The notes under the pieces: model-generated
The model's database searches: none
What the model was told of the DNA's origin: nothing
What the model saw: the letters and a program-made list of their open reading frames with translations, nothing else
Source: an uncultured Saprospiraceae bacterium
Lineage (GTDB): Bacteria; Bacteroidota; Bacteroidia; Chitinophagales; Saprospiraceae
Length of the DNA: 64,000 nucleotides
NCBI GenBank assembly: GCA_937918905.1
Contig: CAKZSH010000060.1
Span: 1 to 64,000 of the forward strand
Direction: 5' to 3'
Translations under genes and position numbers: made by a program
Part shown: one piece after another, positions 39 through 30,316 of the stretch
How positions within the stretch are numbered: the first letter of the stretch is position 1
Layout: each line of letters opens with the position of its first letter

Positions 39-473
39 ATGAATCAAAACTTCCAATCCATCACCCTCAATAATTTCGAACACATCATCGATACTCGTAT
101 TCTCGAACGAGGTTTTGAGTATTATAAAAACGATGCCATCCTTTCCGTCGAACAAATAGATTTGGGAATATGGGAAGCCATTATTTTAGGCAATGAAGAA
201 TATGAGGTCGCCATCCATTTTCAGGACAATATTATAATTAATAGTAACTGCACTTGCCCTTACGATCTCAGTCCTTATTGCAAACACAAAGTTGCTGTTC
301 TAAATTTTATAAAATACTCCAACCAAGCTAAAAATCCTCCATCAGACAAAATGCAACGGGTTCGAAATGCCGTTGATCGTTTTACACCAGAAGAATTAAA
401 AGATAATCTTTTGGAAATTTTAAAATACAACAAAACTGTACGAGAAGATTTTTTAGAAGATTATGATCCTTAA
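39..473 (+). CDS. SWIM zinc-finger domain protein
   Basis: A 144-residue soluble protein with no signal peptide or membrane segment. Residues around 71-84 carry a C-x-C-x7-C-x-H pattern (NCTC...YCKH), the zinc-binding signature of the SWIM finger, which in other proteins mediates DNA or protein binding. The region before the finger (E-hxxxDxRIhERGxxYY) matches the usual N-terminal part of bacterial SWIM proteins. In larger family members the finger sits next to SNF2 helicases; here it stands alone with an acidic C-terminus and no obvious partner gene. The ATG at 39 is the first in-frame start. The exact role is unknown. Confidence 0.8.
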   Translation: MNQNFQSITLNNFEHIIDTRILERGFEYYKNDAILSVEQIDLGIWEAIILGNEEYEVAIHFQDNIIINSNCTCPYDLSPYCKHKVAVLNFIKYSNQAKNPPSDKMQRVRNAVDRFTPEELKDNLLEILKYNKTVREDFLEDYDP

Positions 474-853: not shown

Positions 854-2713
854 TTGAAAAAGAATCTTCTTTATCTTTTTCTCTTTGTCTTTTTTGTGCC
901 TTCATTTGCTCAAAAAAACACCGTTTCTAGTTTAAAGAAACAATTATCTACAGTCTCTTCCGATACTGTAAGAATTGATATTTCTATTCAACTTTCTGAG
1001 TCTTTCGCTTCCATTAATGCTGATTCTTGTGTCTTTTATTATGAAAAAGCATTTCAACTGGCTGACCAAATAGACGATATTAAAAGACTTCAAAAAGCTC
1101 AAACTTCTATAATTAAATTTTTTAGGCATAAAGGAGAATACACAAAAGCAAAAATCTATATTGATAAAGGATTAGAAGTTGCCTACAACCGAAATAATGA
1201 TTTTTTAATTTGTAATTCTTTGATAAGTCTTGCTAATTGGAATAGGGATTTATCTAATCTAAAACAAACTTCAGAATATTTGACAGAAGCATTAAAATAT
1301 TCTAAAAAAACAAACGACCTCTATTTAAAAGGGCTAATTATAAATAGTTTTGCACTTCTTTATGGCGAACTAAATGAAAAAGAAAAAGAAAAAGATTTTA
1401 CAATTCAATATTATGAAATTTCAAAAAAAACAAAGAACACTTATGCTCAAGCAATTGCGCTTAACAATCTAGGATATTTTTATATGCAAAGGAAGAATTA
1501 TTCAAAAGTACTACAATATGTAGAACAAGGTATTCTCCTTGCAGCCACAATAGATGAAAATTCTATGCTCTATGATTTTTTAAATTTAATGAAAGGAAAA
1601 GCATTAATTAGATTAGGACAAAAGGAATTAGGTTTTTCTATTTTGGAATCCACGCTAGAAAAAGCTATTGAGAATAAGCATGTGCGTTCAATTGTTATTA
1701 TAAATAAATACAAAGCTGAATTTCTATTTGAATTAAAAAAATATGAAGATGCAATCGATGCAGCAAAAATTGGTGTGAATACCAGTAAAGAAACTTCCTA
1801 CATCAAGGAACTCCCCGAACTTTGTACAATCTTAGCCAAAAGTTATAAAGCCAAAAAAGATTTTCAATCTTCTTTAGTATGGATGGAAGAACAAAAAAAA
1901 GTGGAACAAGAAATTAGAGAACGTAAAAAAGATAAAGAAATACTTCAGCTTGAAGTAAACCTTGAATTGCAAAAAAAAGAAACCGAAAATCAAATTTTGT
2001 TGCAAAAAAATAAAAATCAGAGAATATTCATTGCCTTAATATTTACATTAGGATTAATCTGCGTTCTTTTGATTGGGTATTTTTTTTGGAAAAAAAATCA
2101 AAAAAGGTTAGAGTATTTTCAACAAAGAATCGCTGCAGATTTACATGATGAGGTGGGAAGTAATCTTAACAACATCACTAGAATTGCAAAAGGACTTAAA
2201 TCAAAAAATATCAATCCTAATATTAGTCAAGGAATTGATCAATTAGTCAAAAAAAGCAACACCACTATTCTAAATGTTGTAGATGTAATTTGGGCATTAG
2301 ATGAAGAAGAATCTAAACTCGAGGATTTAATAGAAAAAATGGAAGCCTATCTTGATGGAATAAAAATGACTAGTAAAAACATTGATGTTCAATTTATCAA
2401 AAAAAATATTTCAGGAAAAACACCTCTCCTCATCAATACCAAACATCACTTATTAATGGCATTTAAAGAAGCTATTAATAATATCCAAAAGCATACCCAT
2501 CCCACTTTAATAACAGTTGAATTAGACAATACCAATCAAAAATTAAAAATGAATATCACTAATCATTTTTCCTCAAAAAAAGATGCGTCTAATTCTACAG
2601 GAAAAGGAATTATAAATATAAGACGAAGGATTCATGAACTAGGAGGAACTGTGGAAATAAAAGATGTTCAAGATCATTTTTTCGTAAATATTGAATTGGA
2701 AAAAATCTCCTAA
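854..2713 (+). CDS. TPR sensor histidine kinase (HisKA_3-like), first of a tandem pair
   Basis: Membrane sensor kinase of 619 residues. Order: signal peptide (1-19), an extracytoplasmic helical region of TPR-type repeats (about 25-350), a coiled coil, one membrane segment (391-412), a dimerisation/phosphoacceptor segment with ADLHDEVGSNL (His431), and a GHKL ATPase-like domain with an N-box (EAINNIQKH). The G2-like box is GKGIINI, but the usual DxGxG G1 box is absent: the aligned stretch reads ITNHFSSKK. ATP binding is therefore doubtful. Translation starts at a TTG at 854, which gives a good signal peptide; no upstream ATG fits. The next gene is a full-length paralogue 9 nt downstream, followed by a response regulator, so the three probably form one signalling operon. 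Confidence 0.85.
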   Translation: MKKNLLYLFLFVFFVPSFAQKNTVSSLKKQLSTVSSDTVRIDISIQLSESFASINADSCVFYYEKAFQLADQIDDIKRLQKAQTSIIKFFRHKGEYTKAKIYIDKGLEVAYNRNNDFLICNSLISLANWNRDLSNLKQTSEYLTEALKYSKKTNDLYLKGLIINSFALLYGELNEKEKEKDFTIQYYEISKKTKNTYAQAIALNNLGYFYMQRKNYSKVLQYVEQGILLAATIDENSMLYDFLNLMKGKALIRLGQKELGFSILESTLEKAIENKHVRSIVIINKYKAEFLFELKKYEDAIDAAKIGVNTSKETSYIKELPELCTILAKSYKAKKDFQSSLVWMEEQKKVEQEIRERKKDKEILQLEVNLELQKKETENQILLQKNKNQRIFIALIFTLGLICVLLIGYFFWKKNQKRLEYFQQRIAADLHDEVGSNLNNITRIAKGLKSKNINPNISQGIDQLVKKSNTTILNVVDVIWALDEEESKLEDLIEKMEAYLDGIKMTSKNIDVQFIKKNISGKTPLLINTKHHLLMAFKEAINNIQKHTHPTLITVELDNTNQKLKMNITNHFSSKKDASNSTGKGIINIRRRIHELGGTVEIKDVQDHFFVNIELEKIS

Positions 2714-2722
2714 AATAAAACA

Positions 2723-4582
2723 ATGAAGATTTTCCTTAAATATTATATAGTTTTGTTTTTCATCTCAGTATCCTATAACCTCTTAGGAAATTCCAATCAT
2801 GAAATTTCACCTCTTCTAAAAAAATTAGAAAAGAGTTCCTACTCCGAAAAACTCAACATCTATAATCAATTAATTGAAGCTTATAGTTCCATACATTTAG
2901 ATTCCTCTTTATATTACTATCAAGAAGCAGCCTCTATTACCAAAGAAAAAGAAGATTACAAAAACTATTGGTTAGCAACCAATACCCTCCTTCCTATTTT
3001 AAGTGCTAAGAGTGAGTACAATATCTCAAAGCAATATCTTGATGAGTCTTTAGAAATAATGCAACAGCATGGAGATGAAGAATTAATTGCAAATGTATTC
3101 CTAGGATTTGGAACATTCCATTGGAATTTATCCAATTTAAAAGAAGCACAAATTGTCCTCAATAAGGCATTATTCCATACTAATCAAGCTAAAAACTTAA
3201 AACTAAAAGCTAATATTTTAAAAATTTTTGGAGGAATATTTATTGACATGGAATCTTACGATAAAAGCCTTAAATATCTCGAAGAATCTTATCAAATTTT
3301 TAAAGAAATAAACGATACACTTGGACAAGCCAATTTGCTAAACAATTTAGGATATGTTTATATCCTAAATCAAAATTATGACTTGGCACTTCAATCATTA
3401 AATAAAGGTCTTGCTCTTTCTCAAAATGCCCCCACTCAAAATATTTATGAATTAACACTCGCCAATAAAGGTGATGCTCTCATTGGTATTAATGAAATAG
3501 ATTTAGGTTTTGAGAAAATAGCAAAAGCCATCCAATTGGCTAAAGCCAGTAATAATATTTATAACCTAATCATTTGCTATGAAATACAATCAAGAAGACT
3601 TTTAGAGTTTAAAAAATATGATGAAGTCATAGACATTTCTAAAAAAGGAATTGAACTGTGTAAAGGGACAGGTACAAAAAGGAATATAAATCGTTTTTAT
3701 AAAAAAATTGCAGAAGCTTATCTAGCAAAGAATAATTATAAACAATCTCTAATTTGGACAGAAAAAGCAAATGAATCAAAAAAAGAACTTTTGGAGTTTC
3801 AAAAAAACAAAGAAGTAATTCGATTACAAATCCAACATCAAATCCAGCAAAAAGAAAAGGAAAACGAATTACTTGCTCTAGAATATAAAAATCGAACTTT
3901 TTTGATTGCTTTAATTATTGCCACTTTTTTGGTAGTCTCATCTTTATCTTTCTATTTTTTTAGAAAAAAACAAGAAGCCTTAATTGAATCCTTCAAACAA
4001 AAAATAGCAGCCGATTTACATGATAGTGTGGGTGGTAACCTAAGCAGCATTGCAAGAATTGCAAAAGGACTTAAGTCTCCAAATAACCTTTCAGAAATTA
4101 ATCAAGGAATAGATCAATTGGTTCTCAAAAGTAATACTGCGATTAAAAATGTTGTGGATGTAATTTGGGCATTAGATCCTGAGGAAAATAAATTAGGATG
4201 CTTAATTGATAAAATAGAAGATTCACTTCAAGGTGTAAAAAAATCTCATAATTCAGTCGAAATCATCTTTAATAAAGAAAATATAAATGAAGAAAAAAAG
4301 CTTTCAGTAGATTTACGTCATCATTTATTAATGATTTTTAAAGAAGCTATAAATAATATTCAATCTCATACGAACCCCACTTTAATTAAAATAACCTTAA
4401 AAAACTCTTCCCAACAATTCCACCTACAGATTAAAAGCTATTTTGAAGTAGAAAAAAATATTTCAATTTCTGAAAATCGTGGAATTCAAAAAATAAAAAA
4501 AAGAGTTGATGAAATGAAAGGGACAATGAATATTATAGAAACTAAAAATAATTTTTCTTTAAATATTGATTTAAAAAATTAA
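2723..4582 (+). CDS. TPR sensor histidine kinase (HisKA_3-like), second of a tandem pair
   Basis: Paralogue of the preceding gene with the same length (619 residues) and architecture: signal peptide, TPR repeats, coiled coil, one membrane segment (about 393-414), H-box ADLHDSVGGNL (His433), N-box EAINNIQSH. As in its neighbour, the G1 box of the ATPase domain is not recognisable (IKSYFEVEK where DxGxG is expected) and the G2 region is reduced to NRGIQKI. Spacing to the flanking genes is 9 and 12 nt, so translation is probably coupled. The pair looks like an old tandem duplication in which both copies were kept; they may work as a heterodimer (inference). Confidence 0.85.
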   Translation: MKIFLKYYIVLFFISVSYNLLGNSNHEISPLLKKLEKSSYSEKLNIYNQLIEAYSSIHLDSSLYYYQEAASITKEKEDYKNYWLATNTLLPILSAKSEYNISKQYLDESLEIMQQHGDEELIANVFLGFGTFHWNLSNLKEAQIVLNKALFHTNQAKNLKLKANILKIFGGIFIDMESYDKSLKYLEESYQIFKEINDTLGQANLLNNLGYVYILNQNYDLALQSLNKGLALSQNAPTQNIYELTLANKGDALIGINEIDLGFEKIAKAIQLAKASNNIYNLIICYEIQSRRLLEFKKYDEVIDISKKGIELCKGTGTKRNINRFYKKIAEAYLAKNNYKQSLIWTEKANESKKELLEFQKNKEVIRLQIQHQIQQKEKENELLALEYKNRTFLIALIIATFLVVSSLSFYFFRKKQEALIESFKQKIAADLHDSVGGNLSSIARIAKGLKSPNNLSEINQGIDQLVLKSNTAIKNVVDVIWALDPEENKLGCLIDKIEDSLQGVKKSHNSVEIIFNKENINEEKKLSVDLRHHLLMIFKEAINNIQSHTNPTLIKITLKNSSQQFHLQIKSYFEVEKNISISENRGIQKIKKRVDEMKGTMNIIETKNNFSLNIDLKN

Positions 4583-4594
4583 CAAAAACAGAAA

Positions 4595-5236
4595 ATGCTA
4601 AAAATTGCAATCATAGAAGACGATAAGGAATATCGGGATGCTTTTAAAGCTTTTTTCACTCAAAAATCTGAAACCATTGAATGTGTTTTTGCAGTAAATG
4701 GTATAGAAACTTTTTTAAAGTATTATCATGAAGAATTGGAATTAGACATTATTTTAGTAGATATACAATTACAGGGCATAAATGGAATCAAAGGCGTCAA
4801 CTACTTACGTAAATTAGATGAAGACATGGAACTCATTATGTTGACTTCGTTCGATGATTCAAAATTAATCTTTCAAGCAATTACTTCTGGAGCAACAGGT
4901 TACCTTCTCAAAAATTTAACCTTCGAAGAGATAGAATCAGAGTTACTCAATACCATTAAAAATGGAGCGGCCATGTCTCCTCAAATCGCTCGTAGAATAA
5001 TTAGACATTTCCAACCACAAAAAAAAATTCTCTCTCTCTTAGAAGAAGAAAAACTGACCGAAAAAGAAAATCAAATCGTACAATTAGTAATAGATGGAAA
5101 AACGTATGAAGAGATTGCTCCTTTGATAGGTCTAACTATCAATGGACTTAAATACCACGTAAAAAACATTTATAAAAAACTACATGTCAAATCTAAAAGT
5201 GGATTAATAAAAAAATTTCTGGGACGAAATAATTGA
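4595..5236 (+). CDS. LuxR/NarL-family response regulator
   Basis: Two-domain regulator of 213 residues. The receiver domain has the acidic pair (IIEDD), phosphoacceptor Asp56 (ILVDIQ), the conserved Thr (MLTSFDD) and Lys (GYLLKN), so it appears competent for phosphorylation. The C-terminal 65 residues form a LuxR-type helix-turn-helix (LTEKENQIVQLVIDGKTYEE, then GLTINGLKYHVKNIYKKL), which binds DNA. It starts 12 nt after the second TPR kinase and is the probable partner of both. The intact receiver contrasts with the degraded ATP sites of the kinases. Target genes are not evident. Confidence 0.92.
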   Translation: MLKIAIIEDDKEYRDAFKAFFTQKSETIECVFAVNGIETFLKYYHEELELDIILVDIQLQGINGIKGVNYLRKLDEDMELIMLTSFDDSKLIFQAITSGATGYLLKNLTFEEIESELLNTIKNGAAMSPQIARRIIRHFQPQKKILSLLEEEKLTEKENQIVQLVIDGKTYEEIAPLIGLTINGLKYHVKNIYKKLHVKSKSGLIKKFLGRNN

Positions 5237-5441
5237 GCTAAATTTCCTCTTTTTTTTACAAAGAATATTACAAAAACAATACACTACCTATCAAGGTGGT
5301 TTTCATATAATAATGTTTTACCCTATTTGAGAGGTCAATACAATATTATACTTTTGTTTAAGACAAAACCCCTTTTACAGTAAACCAAATAATTCAATTC
5401 AATTGTGATAATTAACACATGCCTACATACTTTAATAAAGG

Positions 5442-20870: not shown

Positions 20871-20934
20871 AAAAAATTGCTCAAACGCATCCTCCTCTTT
20901 AAACCTAAAGAAAAGGATGCGTTGCGCTTTTTTT
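20871..20934. terminator. terminator of the adhesin gene
   Basis: Perfect 10-bp stem aacgcatcct / aggatgcgtt with a 20-nt loop; T-rich tracts flank both sides (seven T on the plus strand, seven on the minus). It starts at the stop codon of the minus-strand adhesin and can work in either direction. Confidence 0.75.
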
Positions 20935-23900
20935 ATCTTTCTAATACTAGGAATCCAGACATTGGTTCTGATCCATCACCTAAGTCTACTACGTAGAAGT
21001 AGGTTCCTGTTGGTAGATCTTCTCCTTTGTAAGTTCCTCTCCAATCATTCAAGTATGGTCCTTCTCTGTATACCTCATCTCCCCATTGGTTGAAGATCGA
21101 AACTTCATTATTAGGATAAGTTGAAGTACTCAAACATGGAACAACAAATTCATCATTGATGCCATCATTATTTGGAGAGAAGATCGAAGGTATCGCACAA
21201 GTTGCGTCCGATCCTACATCCAAAGTAACTGTCGCAGTTGAACATTCATCAGGACAAAGTTCACTACAGATTTCGTAACTGAATTGGTCAGTTCCAACAT
21301 ATCCAAAACTAGATGTGTAAGAGAAAACACCGTTGTTTTCTGTAATTGTACCATTTGTCGGACTTGTAAATGAAATACTATATCCAGCAGGTACGGCATC
21401 ATTTGAGAATACATTGACGTCAGATGATCCATTGTAAGAAACACTAACTGCATCATCATTAGCAACTACAGGAGCTTCGTAGAAAATCGTTACATCATCA
21501 GATGAGAACGCTCCACAAACTGTATTACTCAATGTCCAAGTAAATGTATTTGCACCAGGTGTTAAATCTGTTACAAAAGTATTCGGTTGGTTAGGTGCTA
21601 AGATTGTTGCACCAGAAGTAGTCGTCCAAGTTCCTATCATTCCAGCAGGAGCAGAAGTCGCATTTAATGGCGTTTCTTCATCTCCGCATAGGTCTTCATC
21701 ATTTCCTGCAAAAGCAGATGTACCACCTGTACTTCCATTATTCAATAGAACAATGTCAGAAGAGAAATCACCACATCCAGCATTACTTAATGTCCAAATG
21801 AATTGGTAATTATTTCCTGGCATCAATCCAGTTACCGCAGAATTAGGATCAGTAGGATCAACAATCGTTACACCAAGCAATGCTTGAGAAGAAGGTTGAG
21901 TCCATGTTCCAGCAATGCCACCTGTTACAGGTATCGCATTCAATGTTGCATTTGCAGCACCACATAATTCAATATCAATTCCTGCATCAGCTGTAGCTAC
22001 TGCATTGTCTACTACTACTGTTACTTGATCTGTTGCATAGTTCAAACAAGAACCATTGGAAAGCACCCAATCAAAAGTATAACTCTGCCCAGTAGCCAAT
22101 CCTGCAATTGAAGTAATTGCTTGATTTGGATTAGCAATCACAACAGTTGCACCTGCTGTCTGTATCCATTGTCCAGTTCCTACTGTAGGAGCTTGAGCAT
22201 TTAACACAACTGAACCATTATCACATACAAAGATGTCATTTCCAGCAAATGCTCCATTGTTTGGAACAAAATCAAATGTTACTGTTGTCGGTACCGAAGC
22301 AGCCGAAGGACAACCATTTACATTTGAAATTACATAGAAATCATTTGCACCTGCGCCAAATCCACTTAGGTCAGTAATCGTTGAAGTCAACGAAGTCGTA
22401 GGCCCTGCTACAATCGTATTTGTCGAAGCATCAAACCATGTATAAGTTGCTCCCGGTATTGCAGATCCACTTGAAACTGTTAGGTCTAAAGTTGCTGAAG
22501 CATCATCTAAACAAACTGGGCCACCATTTAAAGCAATAGTTGCAACTGGTGCATCATTCACTTCAACAAGAAGTGGAGCAGATGAAACTGAAGGACAACC
22601 ATTTACTACAATCGAAACAAAGTAAGTTCCTTCGTAAGTAGCATCCACAGGGAATACTACAGGATTCTGATTAGTCGAGTTAAAGTTATTTGGTCCAGTC
22701 CAGAAGTAAGTTGCACCTGGTACAAATGGCGTCATCAATTCTAAAGTAGTCCCTTCACATATTGGACCATTATAAGATATAGCTGGAGCAGCTGGTATTG
22801 CATTTACATTTACTGCAAAGTTACCTGACACGGTAGAGGTACATCCATCTACTGTTACTGATACAGAATAATTTCCGTTATCACTCATCGCCGTAACTGG
22901 GATCGTAAATGATGCATTAGTAGTTGTTACTGTACCTTGACCTGGAGTATTCCAAGTGTAGGTAATATTCGATCCGTTGTACGGATTATTTACTAATTGT
23001 AATTGTAATAAATCTCCTTCACAAAGTTGATTATTCAACGATGTGATAACAGGTGTAACAGGTTGATCGTCAACTGAAACTACCATAGTATAAGGATTAG
23101 AAGAACAACCTCCATCTCCAATGATAACTAAAGTATATGATCCATTATCAGCAGAAGTTACATTTGGTAAAGTTACATTAGTAGAAGCTGAAGTAAATCC
23201 ATTTGGTCCAGTCCATTGATACACATAATTTGCGTTAGCTGGACTAACTGATGGAGTTAAAATCATATCATCTACTCCTGTTGCACAACCAATTGCAGAA
23301 GTTGCTATATCCGAAATAACAGGTATATCACTTACATCAACTGTCATTGCTCCTGAAGGATTAGATTGACATCCATCCACTTCAACAATTACATAGTAAC
23401 TATAACTTCCACTTGCTGGATTCGCTACTGTAAAAGTAGGTACTTGAGTCGTATTCACTAATGTTCCCGTTGGAGAAACACCTTCATACCAGAAGTAGTT
23501 AACAACTGTACCTGAATAAGATTGTGTTGATAACATTATATCTTCATTCGAACAGATATCTGAATCTGCTACCATTGCATTCGGAGTGTTAGGTGCAGAG
23601 TTAATTGAAATCGTAACTGCACCTGTTGCAGTACATCCTGTCAATCCAGTAATCGTAACTACATAACTTCCTGAGTAGGTTGCATTCGCATTTGGTATGA
23701 TTGGATTTTGGTCAAATGAAGTAAATCCATTTGGTCCTGACCATACATATGAGTATGTTCCTGTTGGAGCATTTGAGAATAAATTCAAATTATCATCACC
23801 ACATAATCCGATAGAGAATGTTGGTGCCAATTGCATAGATTGAACTGTAACTGGTGCAACACAAGAAGAAATATTTCCTGAATTATCAGTTACTTGTAAC

Positions 23901-26900
23901 ACTACATTTGAAGTTGTTCCTAAATCTCCACAATCAAAAGTATTTGGAGAAACTGTCATAGATGCAATTCCACAATTATCAAAACTTCCACCATCTACTT
24001 GAGTTGGATCAAGTGTATAAGTACTTCCGTCAGGATTTACAAAAATTGTTACCCCTTGACATACTGCCGAAGGTGCTGTATTATCTTCAACTGTAACATC
24101 AAATGTACAAGTCGTAACATTACCATTGATATCTTCAACCATATAAGTCACCGTCGTTACTCCTACGTTGAAGTTTCGTGTTACTGGTGCAATTGGTACT
24201 GGGAAAATACTGTTTGGAATAACAGTAGCACCTGATGCAAAATAAGTTGGTGTTACTGCTGTGTAGTCCAACACAACCGTAATATTACTTGAACCATCAG
24301 GAGTTCCGTCAGGAGTTCCATTTGCAAAAACCGTACATGCAGGACTAATTCCATCTCCTGTGATTCCAGGAGGAGGTGTACTAAATGTATTATTTGAAAC
24401 TGTGCTAATATCCACTTGTCCATCTGCAGCCCAAGCATTGAAAGTAGCTACAGGAACTGTGATAGTTGTTACACTTACTGAAAGTGTAGGACAAGTTCCA
24501 GGAGTCAATGTTACATTAGGTTGACCTACTTGAGTAGTTCCTAATAAAGTTCCATTCTCTCCATATATTTCAAAATACTCATCAGGGTCTTCCACATCTC
24601 CCTCTACTCTTACGGTGAAAGTAACATTACCATTTACGGCATTGGCACCTGTACCAAAGAATGAGAATGATTTATCATCTGCTACATAATCCAAGTAGTT
24701 TGGATTGTATGAGAAAGTGATTAATGAATTCACTCCTTGAGGTTGTACTTGTGAGTACATGTTTTGGAAACCACAATTGTCAAAAATATTTGTAGGTGGC
24801 ATCAAATCAACTGATGCTCCCGCAAAACAATTTGCATTAGCTGGTAACGATACTGTCACATCACTTGGACAAGCCATCGTAGGCAATTCATTATCAATAA
24901 CTGTAACATTATAAGTACATGAAGATTCATTTCCAGCACAGTCAGTTGCAAAATAAGTAACCGAAGTACTTCCTACATCAAATGTATTTGGAACTATTGT
25001 ACCAGGAGTAACCTGTACTCTCGAACCTCCATTAATACTATATTCATAAGTTAATCCATTTGGAGTAACTGTATTGTAATTTAAAGTTCCTGTTGCCGTA
25101 GAACCTCCACCTGTTGGAGGACCTTGAGGACAAATATCATTGATTGCAAAAATTGGATCAACTGTAACATTTGGTACTAAAGTGAATGTTACAAAACCAT
25201 CCGCTGCATATGAATTGATTTGAGCAGCAGTTAAACTTAAGGTAACTGTTGAATTTCCACATTGCATTGCTGAATTAGCAGTCTGTCCCCAGTTTGTTCC
25301 ATCTTCTCCTAGTACTGTAAAGAACTCAGTTGGTTCTTCTCCATCATAATTATCTAACGCAATGGTTAAAGTAACTGGATCAGTTGCCACCGCAGGATTA
25401 GTCGGTAAAGGTCCAAAGTTTAAAGTAATTGGATTTACAATTGTTTGGTCATCTCCAGGGTTTGGAGAAACAAAAGGCTCAACTACTGTTACATTTACAG
25501 TTGAAGTACTGCTTGCACACTCATCCGTAATTAATGGAGGATATAAAGCAGAAGCCACTCCACAAATCCCAGGGTCATTATTTAAAGTCACATCAATTGG
25601 GCAACTCACAAATACAGGTGGTGTATTATCCGTTACTGTAAATGTTACCGTTTGTTCTATTGCATTTCCACACTCATCTGCTGCTACAAACGATACTACA
25701 TCAGAACGATATACTCCCATTGTCCCTGAAGGGCAAACCGCTGCTGCAAGTCCTGCTGGAGCTGTTGTAAAAGTATTCGCATCATTGATATTATATGTAC
25801 CTGGCTCTAAAGCATACCATGTAACTGTTCCACAAAGGTCAGTTGCAGTACCTCCAGCATTGTTTGCAATCCATGCAGCAAACATTGCATCTGCATTCGC
25901 ATCATCAGTACATGAAATCGTTGAACTTTCAGGTAATGTTGCAAAAGTTGGAGGAGTAACATCTTGTACAAAAATGGTTTGTATATCAGAAGCTACATTT
26001 CCACAAGCATCAGTTACCGTCCATGTTCTTTCTAATGTATAATTTTGAGGACAAGATCCAGTTGTTACTACTGCATCTGTAAAGTTAACATCAGGTCCAC
26101 CATCACAATTATCGCTAAGCCCTGTTATATTTCCAGTAATCGTTAAGTCATTTACATTTTGACAATCAACAGTTAAGTTAGCAGGTCTTGTAAATGATGG
26201 AGGCATATTATCTCCAACTGTAATTATTTGAGTGTGTACTGTTGTATTTCCACACATATCAATTGCAGTCCATGTCCTTGTTAAAGTATAATTATAAAAA
26301 TTACACATATCAGGATCACTTCCTTGAGTCGAAGCTACAGCATAGTCAAATGCTTGAATACCACAATTATCCGCTCCTACAATATCAACACCAGGTACTG
26401 GTGGTGCTGGAATAGCATTACATTCTACAGTCATATCTGCTGGTAATGTTCCAGTTATAGTAGGGAATGTAGTATCCTCAACTGTAATCACTTGAGAATC
26501 TGAAGCTGAGTTTCCACAATCATCAGTCACCGTCCATGTTCTTGTAATCACATAGGTATGTACACATGATCCTTGAACCGTATCAGCCGTAAGTACAATG
26601 TTAGGATTAGCATCACACATATCCATTACTGTAGGAGTTCCAGGAACTGGAACATTATCACATTGAACAGTTACATCTCCAGGAGCAGTTACTGTCGGAG
26701 CAGTATTATCTTCTACTGTAATTACTTGAACTCCACTTGAAGCATTATTACAATCATCTGTTGCAGTCCACGTACGAGTTACTACATAACTATTTGCACA
26801 AGTTGCTACAGTATCAGCTACTAAAACAACTGTTGGATTTAATGCACATTCATCTGTTGCAGTAATTACAGCAGGAGCAGGTGCTTGACAATCCACCGTT

Positions 26901-29900
26901 ACATCTCCTGGAATTGCAGAAAGAACTGGTGCTGTATTATCTTCTATAGTAAAGTTCGAAGTTGTTGTAGATGTATTGTTACATTCATCAGTTACTCTAA
27001 AAGTAACTTGAACTGACCAATTACAATCATTAGCTGTAACCTGTGGATAATTTCCATAATCTCCAAAGGTAACTGTAGCCGCAGCAGGGAATAGATCATT
27101 TGTTACATAATCAAAATCTACCCAAGTATGATTAGAACAACCATCAGAAGCGACGGCATTTCCAAAATTATCAATCCAGGCTTCTAATTTCAATTGGTCA
27201 TCTCCTCCCCCACATGTTTCAGTAACACTATTTGAGGTTGGGAAAATTTCAGGAGAAATAATATCGATAACTGTTAAGTTAGCACTAGCTGAAGCTGTAA
27301 ATCCACAATCATCAGTTACTGTAAATATTACATTATAAACTCCTGTACCAGTACAATTAGGTGTATAACTCTGAACATAAGTCCAATTACTTGAACCACT
27401 TGAATTATCAATAGTTGAACAACCATCAAATGCAGTTGCTCCACCATGAGCGTTTAACCATGTATTTAAGAAAACATTATCAAACGTATCACATTGAACA
27501 GTTATGCTCATTGGATTATTTGTAATGACAGGTGCTTGTGTATCTATCACCGTCAAGGTAGTAGAAGTGGTCGCTGAATTTCCACACTCATCAGTTGCAG
27601 TAAAGTTTACTGTTGTTGTTCCTGATCCTGCACAACCTGCCGTATGAGTCGTATAATCATTTGACCAAGTCACACTTCCACAAAGTTCACTTACTATTGC
27701 ATTTCCATTATTTGCTAACCAATTATTAATACTTGCAGTCGTACTTCCATTACATTCAACACTTAAAGGTTGCGCTCCAGTAGGAAATGTAGGATCCGTA
27801 GTATCTTGAATGGTAACAGTTGCTGTTCGAGTTGAAGATAAACCACAATCATCAAAAGCAGTAAAGGTAACTGTCGCAGTTCCTGTCGCTCCACATAAAT
27901 CACTTACTCCAGAATAGTTATTTGTAAAAGTTACAACTGTACCACCACAATTATCTGTAGCAGCACCGCCATTTCCAACACTTGTTAACCAAGCATTGAT
28001 TTGCCCACCTGGATCCGTTGTTCCATCACACTCTACAACTAATGGTGCTGGGTTTACTGTCCAATTAGGAGGAGTCGTATCTTCTACAGTTAAAGTTGCT
28101 GTTCGCGTTGCTACATTTCCACAACCATCACTAGCTGTAAACATTACATTTACAGAACCTGATGCTCCACAACCATTTGAGATACTTGTATAATTATTTG
28201 AATAAGTTACCAATGCTGGATTACAAGCATCAGTAGCCGATCCACCTCCGTTATTTGATAACCATGTTGCAATTTGTCCACCTGGATCCATTGTCCCATC
28301 ACACTCAATAGTTAATGGTACTGGGTTAACATTCCATATTGGAAGTTGTGTATCTGCAATTGTAAAAGTAGCAGTCGTTGGTGTTGGGTTTTCATTTCCA
28401 CATGCATCTCGTACATAGAAATCAACCGTTACACTTCCATTATTTCCACAAGTAAAATTAATGGAAGGATTAGCAGGAACAGTTCTCCATGCCATTGCTC
28501 CACTTGCACATACATCATTAGCTGCTGCATTTCCATTTGCATTTAACCATGTGGTAAACTGAGCATTATTTCCTGCACCATCACATTCTACTGTTGCATT
28601 AGTAGCAGGAGTAGATATTGTCGGGAAAGAATTATCAATAATAGAAAAGTCCGCATCTGTAGTTGAAAAATTTCCACAATTATCTGTATACATAAATTCA
28701 ACAGTAATAGTAGCTACAAAACCAGCATTACAACCTGAGTTTATTGCATTTTGCAGAGCTACAAATGGATCATCTGTATTTTGATCAGATGGAACAGCGA
28801 TAGATTTTACTATTAAACTATTAGGAGAACAAGCATCCATTGCAACGGAATTTCCATCAGCCGCTAACCATGCGGTTAAATCTGCTGTATTTCCAGTACC
28901 ATCACAAGTCACTTGAATATCTTGAGCACCTGTAGTAATATTAGGTGGATTAGAATCTAGTACGTTAAAATTAATAGTTACAGTTGATGAATTACATCCA
29001 TCAGAAGCAGTATAAATTACTGCAGCAGTTCCAGTTCCTGCACATGTTCCTCCACTTAAGCCTATATAATTATGTGACCAAACCACAGGGCTACAATTAT
29101 CTGTAACTGTAAAGCTGTCCGCATAAGTCAAAATAATTGTCTCTGGGTCAGCAGGAAATCCTGTACATTGAATAGTTACACTTGTAGTTGCGGGAGGAGT
29201 AATAACTGGTGCGTTATTATCTTGTACATCTATAGTTTGAGTATAATTATATACCAATCCACAATCATCTTCTAAAGTCCAAGTTCGAGTAATTAATAAA
29301 GTAGTTGGGCAAGCACCTCCCGTAGAAGTGGATTCCAATCCGTTATTAATAATCATAACATTTGCTGGAAGTGTACAATCATCTAAAATATCAGCAGCAG
29401 TCAATGTAGGAGCTGCTGGAATTGCACCACATGAAACAGTTACATCTGCAATTGTTGCCAAAAATGCTGGCGAAATAGACGGTCCAGCATTAGGCTGAAC
29501 GGTAATATTTTGTGTTGCTGTGGAAATATTATTTCCATCAGAAGCAGTAAAAGTTCTCACAATAGTTCCACCAATACAATAATCTATAGTTGCTGGATTA
29601 TCTATTACTGTTGCTGGAAAAACTCCTCCACAATTATCCGTAGCATTTATTGTCGGAGCTGCAGGAATCCCACAACTTACTGTTACATCAGCAGGTACTG
29701 AGCCTGCGGCAATAACAGGTGGTGAATTATCTACAAATTCAATGGTAAATCCAAAAAATCCACTATTGCCACAATCATCCATTGCTTGGTATAATACCAT
29801 CACGGAATCTCCTGCAGTAAATGGTGCTGTAGGAGGAATAGTAGTCGTAGGGTAAGAATTTCCACTATTGTCTGTTATGGAAAAAACTCCCGAAGTTACT

Positions 29901-30112
29901 GTACAAGTCATTCCTTGAACATTGGAAGTGATCGTTACAGAAGTAGGGTGTCCCCAATTCGCAACTCCTTCACAATTACTATCTACAAAAATAGTATCGG
30001 GACCTGTATAGGTGAAAATAAACTCATTTTGCGACCACCCTACTTGGGCAAATAGCAAAAGGGTGAAAAACGCTGTCAGCGCATGTTTTAAAGTGAGTAC
30101 TCTGTTCTTCAT
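20933..30112 (-). CDS. giant HYR-repeat adhesin with gliding-motility-type (type IX) C-terminal domain
   Basis: Surface protein of about 3,059 residues. I start at MKNRVLTLKHALTAFFTLLL, a signal peptide ending VGWSQ; an ATG 69 nt upstream would spoil it. Then follow about 18 HYR-like beta domains, each opening with a D-x-x-x-P-x-I/F turn and a DVTVxC motif and rich in paired cysteines; two Calx-beta-like inserts (EEPTEFFTVLGEDG, EDPDEYFEIYGENG); six PKD/Ig-like domains (SGPNGFTS, WTGPNGFTSAS); three AGNDxxxC domains; one cadherin-like VANDD domain; and a C-terminal CHU_C domain (SIFSPNNDGINDEF ... GTYFYVVDLGDG) that directs export by type IX secretion. It probably mediates adhesion or gliding. 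PorP/SprF is its neighbour. No catalytic domain was seen. Confidence 0.93.
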   Translation of the reverse strand: MKNRVLTLKHALTAFFTLLLFAQVGWSQNEFIFTYTGPDTIFVDSNCEGVANWGHPTSVTITSNVQGMTCTVTSGVFSITDNSGNSYPTTTIPPTAPFTAGDSVMVLYQAMDDCGNSGFFGFTIEFVDNSPPVIAAGSVPADVTVSCGIPAAPTINATDNCGGVFPATVIDNPATIDYCIGGTIVRTFTASDGNNISTATQNITVQPNAGPSISPAFLATIADVTVSCGAIPAAPTLTAADILDDCTLPANVMIINNGLESTSTGGACPTTLLITRTWTLEDDCGLVYNYTQTIDVQDNNAPVITPPATTSVTIQCTGFPADPETIILTYADSFTVTDNCSPVVWSHNYIGLSGGTCAGTGTAAVIYTASDGCNSSTVTINFNVLDSNPPNITTGAQDIQVTCDGTGNTADLTAWLAADGNSVAMDACSPNSLIVKSIAVPSDQNTDDPFVALQNAINSGCNAGFVATITVEFMYTDNCGNFSTTDADFSIIDNSFPTISTPATNATVECDGAGNNAQFTTWLNANGNAAANDVCASGAMAWRTVPANPSINFTCGNNGSVTVDFYVRDACGNENPTPTTATFTIADTQLPIWNVNPVPLTIECDGTMDPGGQIATWLSNNGGGSATDACNPALVTYSNNYTSISNGCGASGSVNVMFTASDGCGNVATRTATLTVEDTTPPNWTVNPAPLVVECDGTTDPGGQINAWLTSVGNGGAATDNCGGTVVTFTNNYSGVSDLCGATGTATVTFTAFDDCGLSSTRTATVTIQDTTDPTFPTGAQPLSVECNGSTTASINNWLANNGNAIVSELCGSVTWSNDYTTHTAGCAGSGTTTVNFTATDECGNSATTSTTLTVIDTQAPVITNNPMSITVQCDTFDNVFLNTWLNAHGGATAFDGCSTIDNSSGSSNWTYVQSYTPNCTGTGVYNVIFTVTDDCGFTASASANLTVIDIISPEIFPTSNSVTETCGGGDDQLKLEAWIDNFGNAVASDGCSNHTWVDFDYVTNDLFPAAATVTFGDYGNYPQVTANDCNWSVQVTFRVTDECNNTSTTTSNFTIEDNTAPVLSAIPGDVTVDCQAPAPAVITATDECALNPTVVLVADTVATCANSYVVTRTWTATDDCNNASSGVQVITVEDNTAPTVTAPGDVTVQCDNVPVPGTPTVMDMCDANPNIVLTADTVQGSCVHTYVITRTWTVTDDCGNSASDSQVITVEDTTFPTITGTLPADMTVECNAIPAPPVPGVDIVGADNCGIQAFDYAVASTQGSDPDMCNFYNYTLTRTWTAIDMCGNTTVHTQIITVGDNMPPSFTRPANLTVDCQNVNDLTITGNITGLSDNCDGGPDVNFTDAVVTTGSCPQNYTLERTWTVTDACGNVASDIQTIFVQDVTPPTFATLPESSTISCTDDANADAMFAAWIANNAGGTATDLCGTVTWYALEPGTYNINDANTFTTAPAGLAAAVCPSGTMGVYRSDVVSFVAADECGNAIEQTVTFTVTDNTPPVFVSCPIDVTLNNDPGICGVASALYPPLITDECASSTSTVNVTVVEPFVSPNPGDDQTIVNPITLNFGPLPTNPAVATDPVTLTIALDNYDGEEPTEFFTVLGEDGTNWGQTANSAMQCGNSTVTLSLTAAQINSYAADGFVTFTLVPNVTVDPIFAINDICPQGPPTGGGSTATGTLNYNTVTPNGLTYEYSINGGSRVQVTPGTIVPNTFDVGSTSVTYFATDCAGNESSCTYNVTVIDNELPTMACPSDVTVSLPANANCFAGASVDLMPPTNIFDNCGFQNMYSQVQPQGVNSLITFSYNPNYLDYVADDKSFSFFGTGANAVNGNVTFTVRVEGDVEDPDEYFEIYGENGTLLGTTQVGQPNVTLTPGTCPTLSVSVTTITVPVATFNAWAADGQVDISTVSNNTFSTPPPGITGDGISPACTVFANGTPDGTPDGSSNITVVLDYTAVTPTYFASGATVIPNSIFPVPIAPVTRNFNVGVTTVTYMVEDINGNVTTCTFDVTVEDNTAPSAVCQGVTIFVNPDGSTYTLDPTQVDGGSFDNCGIASMTVSPNTFDCGDLGTTSNVVLQVTDNSGNISSCVAPVTVQSMQLAPTFSIGLCGDDNLNLFSNAPTGTYSYVWSGPNGFTSFDQNPIIPNANATYSGSYVVTITGLTGCTATGAVTISINSAPNTPNAMVADSDICSNEDIMLSTQSYSGTVVNYFWYEGVSPTGTLVNTTQVPTFTVANPASGSYSYYVIVEVDGCQSNPSGAMTVDVSDIPVISDIATSAIGCATGVDDMILTPSVSPANANYVYQWTGPNGFTSASTNVTLPNVTSADNGSYTLVIIGDGGCSSNPYTMVVSVDDQPVTPVITSLNNQLCEGDLLQLQLVNNPYNGSNITYTWNTPGQGTVTTTNASFTIPVTAMSDNGNYSVSVTVDGCTSTVSGNFAVNVNAIPAAPAISYNGPICEGTTLELMTPFVPGATYFWTGPNNFNSTNQNPVVFPVDATYEGTYFVSIVVNGCPSVSSAPLLVEVNDAPVATIALNGGPVCLDDASATLDLTVSSGSAIPGATYTWFDASTNTIVAGPTTSLTSTITDLSGFGAGANDFYVISNVNGCPSAASVPTTVTFDFVPNNGAFAGNDIFVCDNGSVVLNAQAPTVGTGQWIQTAGATVVIANPNQAITSIAGLATGQSYTFDWVLSNGSCLNYATDQVTVVVDNAVATADAGIDIELCGAANATLNAIPVTGGIAGTWTQPSSQALLGVTIVDPTDPNSAVTGLMPGNNYQFIWTLSNAGCGDFSSDIVLLNNGSTGGTSAFAGNDEDLCGDEETPLNATSAPAGMIGTWTTTSGATILAPNQPNTFVTDLTPGANTFTWTLSNTVCGAFSSDDVTIFYEAPVVANDDAVSVSYNGSSDVNVFSNDAVPAGYSISFTSPTNGTITENNGVFSYTSSFGYVGTDQFSYEICSELCPDECSTATVTLDVGSDATCAIPSIFSPNNDGINDEFVVPCLSTSTYPNNEVSIFNQWGDEVYREGPYLNDWRGTYKGEDLPTGTYFYVVDLGDGSEPMSGFLVLER

Positions 30113-30164
30113 ATTTTTAACTTTATTAAAAATTAAGATAAAAACTAATATGTTTTGTTGATTG

Positions 30165-30172
30165 CAAACATA
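30165..30172 (-). promoter_or_regulatory. -7 box of the adhesin gene
   Basis: Read on the minus strand this is TATGTTTG, an exact TAnnTTTG match 53 nt upstream of the adhesin ATG. No -33 TTG is at the usual distance. Confidence 0.45.
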
Positions 30173-30316
30173 TGTACGCATCCCACTAGGGGAAGTGTTA
30201 CAAATACTTGCATCAAAAAATGAAATAGTTTGACGCTAAATAATTGACATAATTACCTTTTTACCAAAATCAATTCATTTGGTAGTATGATAAATCCATA
30301 AATAATTTTCGTGTGA

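Follow-up and report, generated by a model that had tools for sequence, protein, structure and literature searches.

Variant G1 boxes in a tandem of TPR sensor kinases from Saprospiraceae suggest weak ATP binding rather than loss of kinase function

The window analysed here is a stretch of 64,000 nucleotides of a contig from an uncultured Saprospiraceae bacterium. Near its start lie two tandem sensor kinase genes, which we call HK1 and HK2, and the gene of a response regulator (Table 1). The intergenic gaps of 9 bases between HK1 and HK2 and of 12 bases between HK2 and the response regulator, together with the terminator-like hairpin behind the last gene, are consistent with a single operon. 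The two kinases are 37% identical over 612 residues. Further along the window, positions 20933-30181 of the minus strand encode a protein of 3082 aa, which contains HYR and Ig-like domains and carries a CHU_C type IX secretion domain at its C terminus.

Table 1 Features of the kinase locus, in positions of the window.
Feature	Position	Strand	Remarks
SWIM zinc-finger gene	39..473	+	Upstream of HK1; opens the window
HK1 sensor kinase, 619 aa, TTG start	854..2713	+	Intact ORF
Parts of HK1			N-terminal hydrophobic segment, TPR sensor region, second hydrophobic segment (~392-412), HisKA_3-type DHp (H431, D432), GHKL catalytic domain
HK1 variant G1 box ITNHFSSKK, residues 568-576	2555..2581	+	Asn570 codon 2561-2563
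HK2 sensor kinase, 619 aa	2723..4582	+	Intact ORF; tandem paralogue, architecture as HK1
HK2 variant G1 box IKSYFEVEK, residues 570-578	4430..4456	+	Ser572 codon 4436-4438
NarL-type response regulator	4595..5236	+	Receiver and GerE/LuxR HTH (Response_reg and GerE matches)
Terminator-like hairpin	5283..5300	+	3' of the response regulator

Both kinases carry the phosphoacceptor histidine (H431 in HK1, H433 in HK2) and the N box KEAINNI, which begins at residue 538 in HK1 and at residue 540 in HK2. The position of the G1 aspartate is occupied by Asn570 in HK1 and by Ser572 in HK2, and DxGxG is found in neither of the two stretches. When the profile of the clade to which they belong is aligned to DesK, the SDDG box of the latter falls exactly on the variant stretch of both kinases, and no shifted DxG occurs between this stretch and the G2 box in HK1 or HK2. 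The G2 box reads STGKGI in HK1, where GxG is kept, and SENRGI in HK2, where the first glycine is lost and the second kept. The adjoining response regulator retains all phosphorylation-site residues (E8, D9, D10, D56, T84 and K106).

These results bear out the first-pass annotation as far as it described the site itself: the histidine and the N box are kept in both kinases, DxGxG and its aspartate are absent from both copies, and the partner regulator has its full set of active-site residues. The case that would have spoken against that description, a shifted but complete G1 box, is absent from both kinases in the profile alignment. Judged by its residues, HK1 is better described as carrying an Asp-to-Asn substitution, with Phe for the first G1 glycine, than as missing the box.

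We regard HK1 and HK2 as membrane sensor kinases of the HisKA_3 (HPK7/NarL) kind whose TPR sensor region is laid out like that of FimS. The HisKA_3 DHp model is matched by HK2 (24.6 bits against a cut-off of 24), by HK1 just under that cut-off (19.1 bits) and by 18 of 19 aligned members, and the H-D pair is invariant. The N box (KEAINN in both) and the G2 box (with its first glycine in HK1 only) are those of this class, and the partner, with its Response_reg and GerE matches, is of the NarL/LuxR class. What both kinases lack is the G1 DxGxG with the adenine-contacting aspartate; the pair is therefore filed as a HisKA_3 variant and not as typical members. DesK, VraS, NarX and UhpB share with HK1 and HK2 the DHp type with its H-D pair, the catalytic fold, the order of motifs and the NarL-type regulator, whereas the G1 aspartate (SDDG) and the glutamine at H+5 (HDTLGQ) of DesK have no counterpart in either kinase. 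FimS of Porphyromonas gingivalis has a TPR sensor region before the kinase and a partner regulator, FimR (PMC11053733, PMC5706477). FimS is a single kinase, and the weak NCBIfam match to it lies chiefly over the TPR part and reaches 50 bits, far under the family cut-off of 600 bits. A pseudo-histidine-kinase would be recognized by loss of the histidine or of the contacts that the N box and the G2 box make to ATP and Mg2+, and the contacts lost here are limited to the G1 aspartate in both kinases and the first G2 glycine in HK2.

AlphaFold2 models of the catalytic regions are confident, with a mean pLDDT of 90.8 for HK1 and 90.4 for HK2. In the models, the strand that leads into G1 continues through the variant box (residues 563-575 in HK1, 565-577 in HK2) and leaves a short lid. 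A Foldseek search with the HK1 model returns DesK structures with AMP-PCP as its top PDB matches (E 2e-10); whole-chain TM-scores are about 0.5 with a large rmsd, which may mean that in the models the two domains are set at another angle to each other.

To place the substitution among related kinases, we drew relatives from three overlapping sets of genomes, with 398 from the family, 299 from the order and 396 from the phylum. The G1 residue is Asp in 98 of the 124 relatives with a readable box, Asn in 25 and Ser in one, the Asn share being biased and the frequencies not representative because the relatives were fetched with a query of N-type sequences. The 26 non-Asp cases are not a random spread, since 25 of them are Asn. 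A glycine two residues past the G1 position is found in 97 of the 98 D-types, and Phe or Tyr stands there in 15 of the 25 N-types. GxG in the G2 box is absent from 9 of 26 N-types, against 6 of 98 D-types. We examined the surroundings of 15 N-type loci, and a response-regulator gene lies within about 1 kb at 14 of them. Close to one further N-type TPR kinase and its regulator, on contig C125 of the same genome as the window, there is a gene for a 508-aa reverse transcriptase (L054:7484-9010; RVT_1, E 1e-20).

In trees built with the G1 columns removed, HK1, HK2, three tandem copies from a congeneric genome (G004) and 13 other kinases form one clade of 18 members, 17 of which have Asn and one of which, HK2, has Ser. 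Support for this clade is SH-aLRT 99 under a mixture model with long rows left out; the corresponding set receives a weak SH-aLRT of 82 under a simple model with 124 rows. All 18 members belong to Saprospiraceae, the family of the window, and the G1 aspartate is present at all 28 loci from other families that we inspected among the results of the phylum search. Additional Asp-to-Asn changes occur among the D-type kinases, where the box is still recognizable as NDG or NNG.

The congeneric genome preserves the neighbourhood of the window: a SWIM gene, kinases, a regulator, a propeller gene and an XdhC gene. Its locus (L053:7591-13389) has three tandem TPR kinases, not two, before a single NarL-type regulator, and their G1 boxes read IINTF, ILNEF and LLNNY. 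The IINTF copy is the nearest one to HK1 (53%), and the LLNNY copy, which has Asn, is the nearest one to HK2 (48%). Since HK1 and HK2 pair separately with different copies, the duplication came before the split of the two genomes and the serine of HK2 came later. At a divergence that leaves orthologues only about 50% identical, synonymous sites would be saturated. The change from Asp to Asn was inherited from before the kinase duplication, and the step from Asn to Ser followed in HK2 alone. The idea of a parallel loss in the two paralogues, on which the first-pass annotation had based its case for function, is therefore rejected by the G1-free trees in favour of shared inheritance. The case for function itself holds on other grounds, namely the Asn clade, the intact remaining residues, an Asn-bearing LytS-type group and the AgrC precedent.

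We measured constraint on the rest of the catalytic site at positions that are at least 93% conserved in the 98 D-type relatives. H431, D432, D477, W480, E539, N543, G585 and R592 are kept in all 18 members of the clade, which are 25-63% identical to HK1, and D570 is replaced by Asn in 17 of the 18. Random decay of HK1 and HK2 is disfavoured by this conservation together with the specificity of the change. Arg423, eight residues before the phosphoacceptor histidine, is invariant in D-types and kept in half of the clade, and is a possible candidate for a co-varying site. With GxG in G2 more often lost as well, the site and lid of the clade are somewhat looser overall. A contrasting case is a decayed relative of 242 aa in genome G001 (L056:5662-6390), which sits downstream of an N-type propeller kinase and in which the phosphoacceptor histidine is Asn, the N-box asparagine Phe, the G2 glycine Arg and the arginine Leu. 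This protein is likely a true pseudokinase partner. A dead member of the group would be expected to resemble it, and HK1 and HK2 do not.

Asparagine at G1 is also the rule in one group of kinases of the LytS type (PF06580), whose phosphoacceptor domain and N box differ from those of HK1 and HK2. In the phylum sample, this group of kinases of about 340-650 aa (loci L209, L210, L212 and L267-L296) has Asn at G1 in all of its 34 distinct cases; the N box and a GxGL-type G2 box are intact, and the pattern is often N-x-hydrophobic-x-x-Lys. Among the eight PF06580 kinases listed for the genome of the window, three, all of 365-375 aa, have the G1 asparagine. The shared N-x-hydrophobic-x-x-Lys pattern raised the possibility of a catalytic-domain swap from LytS kinases, which we rejected: the catalytic domain of HK1 and HK2 is of the HisKA_3 type (63-88 bits, against 5-31 bits for LytS), and the resemblance therefore looks convergent. 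Our literature search found no paper on G1 asparagine in LytS-type kinases of Bacteroidota.

A biochemical precedent is AgrC, in which DXGXG is absent and the G1 aspartate is replaced by asparagine (PMC10482373). HPK10 kinases in general have no D box (PMC3353171). Reconstituted AgrC autophosphorylates (PMC3841183), and a passage of PMC9430575 that cites Wang et al. 2014 gives its ATP affinity as poor. HK1 resembles AgrC (HPK10, HATPase_c_5) in having Asn570 for the aspartate and no DXGXG with the other ATP-site motifs kept, and it scores slightly higher against HATPase_c_5 than against HATPase_c, at a value under the HATPase_c_5 cut-off; HK2 has Ser instead. On the other hand, the tyrosine two residues past the histidine that defines the HPK10 H box (PMC3353171) and the LytTR partner are absent: HK1 reads H431-D-E and HK2 H433-D-S, and the partner is NarL-type. 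AgrC further differs in its phosphoacceptor domain and its polytopic peptide sensor, as opposed to the HisKA_3 domain and TPR region found here. It belongs to another kinase family, and its biochemistry need not carry over to HK1 and HK2. In DivL, whose site is more altered, nucleotide binding is weak and autokinase activity is absent (PMC4211667).

Taken with the conserved residues, the AgrC parallel suggests that HK1 and HK2 are probably working kinases with weak ATP binding rather than dead enzymes. Our main reading, to which we give a probability of roughly 0.6, is a HisKA_3/NarL-type system with TPR sensors and with ATP sites that have a low affinity like that of AgrC; HK2 is perhaps its weaker partner. 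In the clade of the pair, the aspartate changed to asparagine once, and the first glycine mostly to Phe or Tyr, before the kinases duplicated. HK1 would bind ATP through its unchanged N and G2 boxes, with the asparagine taking over part of the adenine contact, and would autophosphorylate His431 with a low ATP affinity, as AgrC does. HK2, with serine at G1 and the first G2 glycine lost, would be the weaker of the two, and its role may lie mostly in dimers formed with HK1 or in supplying a second input of lower activity. Both kinases would jointly feed the adjoining NarL-type regulator, and, by analogy with AgrC, the signal would depend on the energy state of the cell in addition to the TPR ligand. 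This reading is weakened by the looser site of the clade, by the different kinase family of AgrC and by the example of DivL, as well as by the combination in HK2 of Ser at G1 with a broken GxG in G2.

That same combination, which is found in HK2 alone, suits a division of labour in which HK1 is the kinase that is active, with low affinity, while HK2 is a pseudokinase that responds to a second ligand and forms heterodimers by which it steers HK1. The tandem arrangement of two kinases of 37% identity and the true pseudokinase adjoining an N-type kinase in genome G001 point the same way, and the ChrS pseudokinase, which acts with HrrS, is a precedent for such steering (PMC9491836). HK2, however, retains H433, D434, the N-box Glu and Asn, the second G2 glycine and the arginine, and its closest copy in the congeneric genome has Asn, so that we consider this arrangement possible but doubtful. 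It is improbable that both proteins are pseudokinases phosphorylated by another kinase and serving as phosphotransfer scaffolds. The absence of the G1 aspartate from both would fit such a role, and any of the 49 HATPase_c matches listed for the genome could act in trans, but strict ATP and Mg2+ contacts in the N and G2 boxes, held over the 18-member clade, would be useless to a scaffold. A phosphatase-only pair that turns the regulator off is very improbable: the aspartate beside the histidine, with which DxxxQ begins, is kept, but H+5 is occupied by Ser in HK1 and by Gly in HK2, Gln stands there in none of 123 relatives, D-type or N-type, DxxxQ is required for phosphatase action in NarX (PMC3510030), and such a role would hardly account for the invariance of the ATP-site residues.

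The first-pass annotation had offered three possibilities for the pair. The low-affinity reading corresponds to its proposal that they bind ATP differently, which fits best; action as phosphatases only is disfavoured by the missing DxxxQ of the whole group and by the invariant ATP- and Mg2+-site residues, and HK2 might use another kinase. More speculatively, and in our view unlikely, the HisKA_3 kinases of the clade may have independently adopted the asparagine site seen in AgrC and LytS-type kinases, so that these systems would read the ATP level together with a ligand, with Asn and Ser tuning HK1 and HK2 to different ATP ranges.

The G1 aspartate is often used to tell whether a GHKL ATPase is live. 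As it is absent from an otherwise intact clade and from all 34 sampled members of the LytS-type group described above, a pseudokinase label given on that residue alone would be premature. If the AgrC parallel is true, histidine kinases that have low affinity and are coupled to cell energy would be common beyond the quorum sensing of Gram-positive bacteria, and the HK1/HK2 tandem would be a simple system for testing energy coupling.
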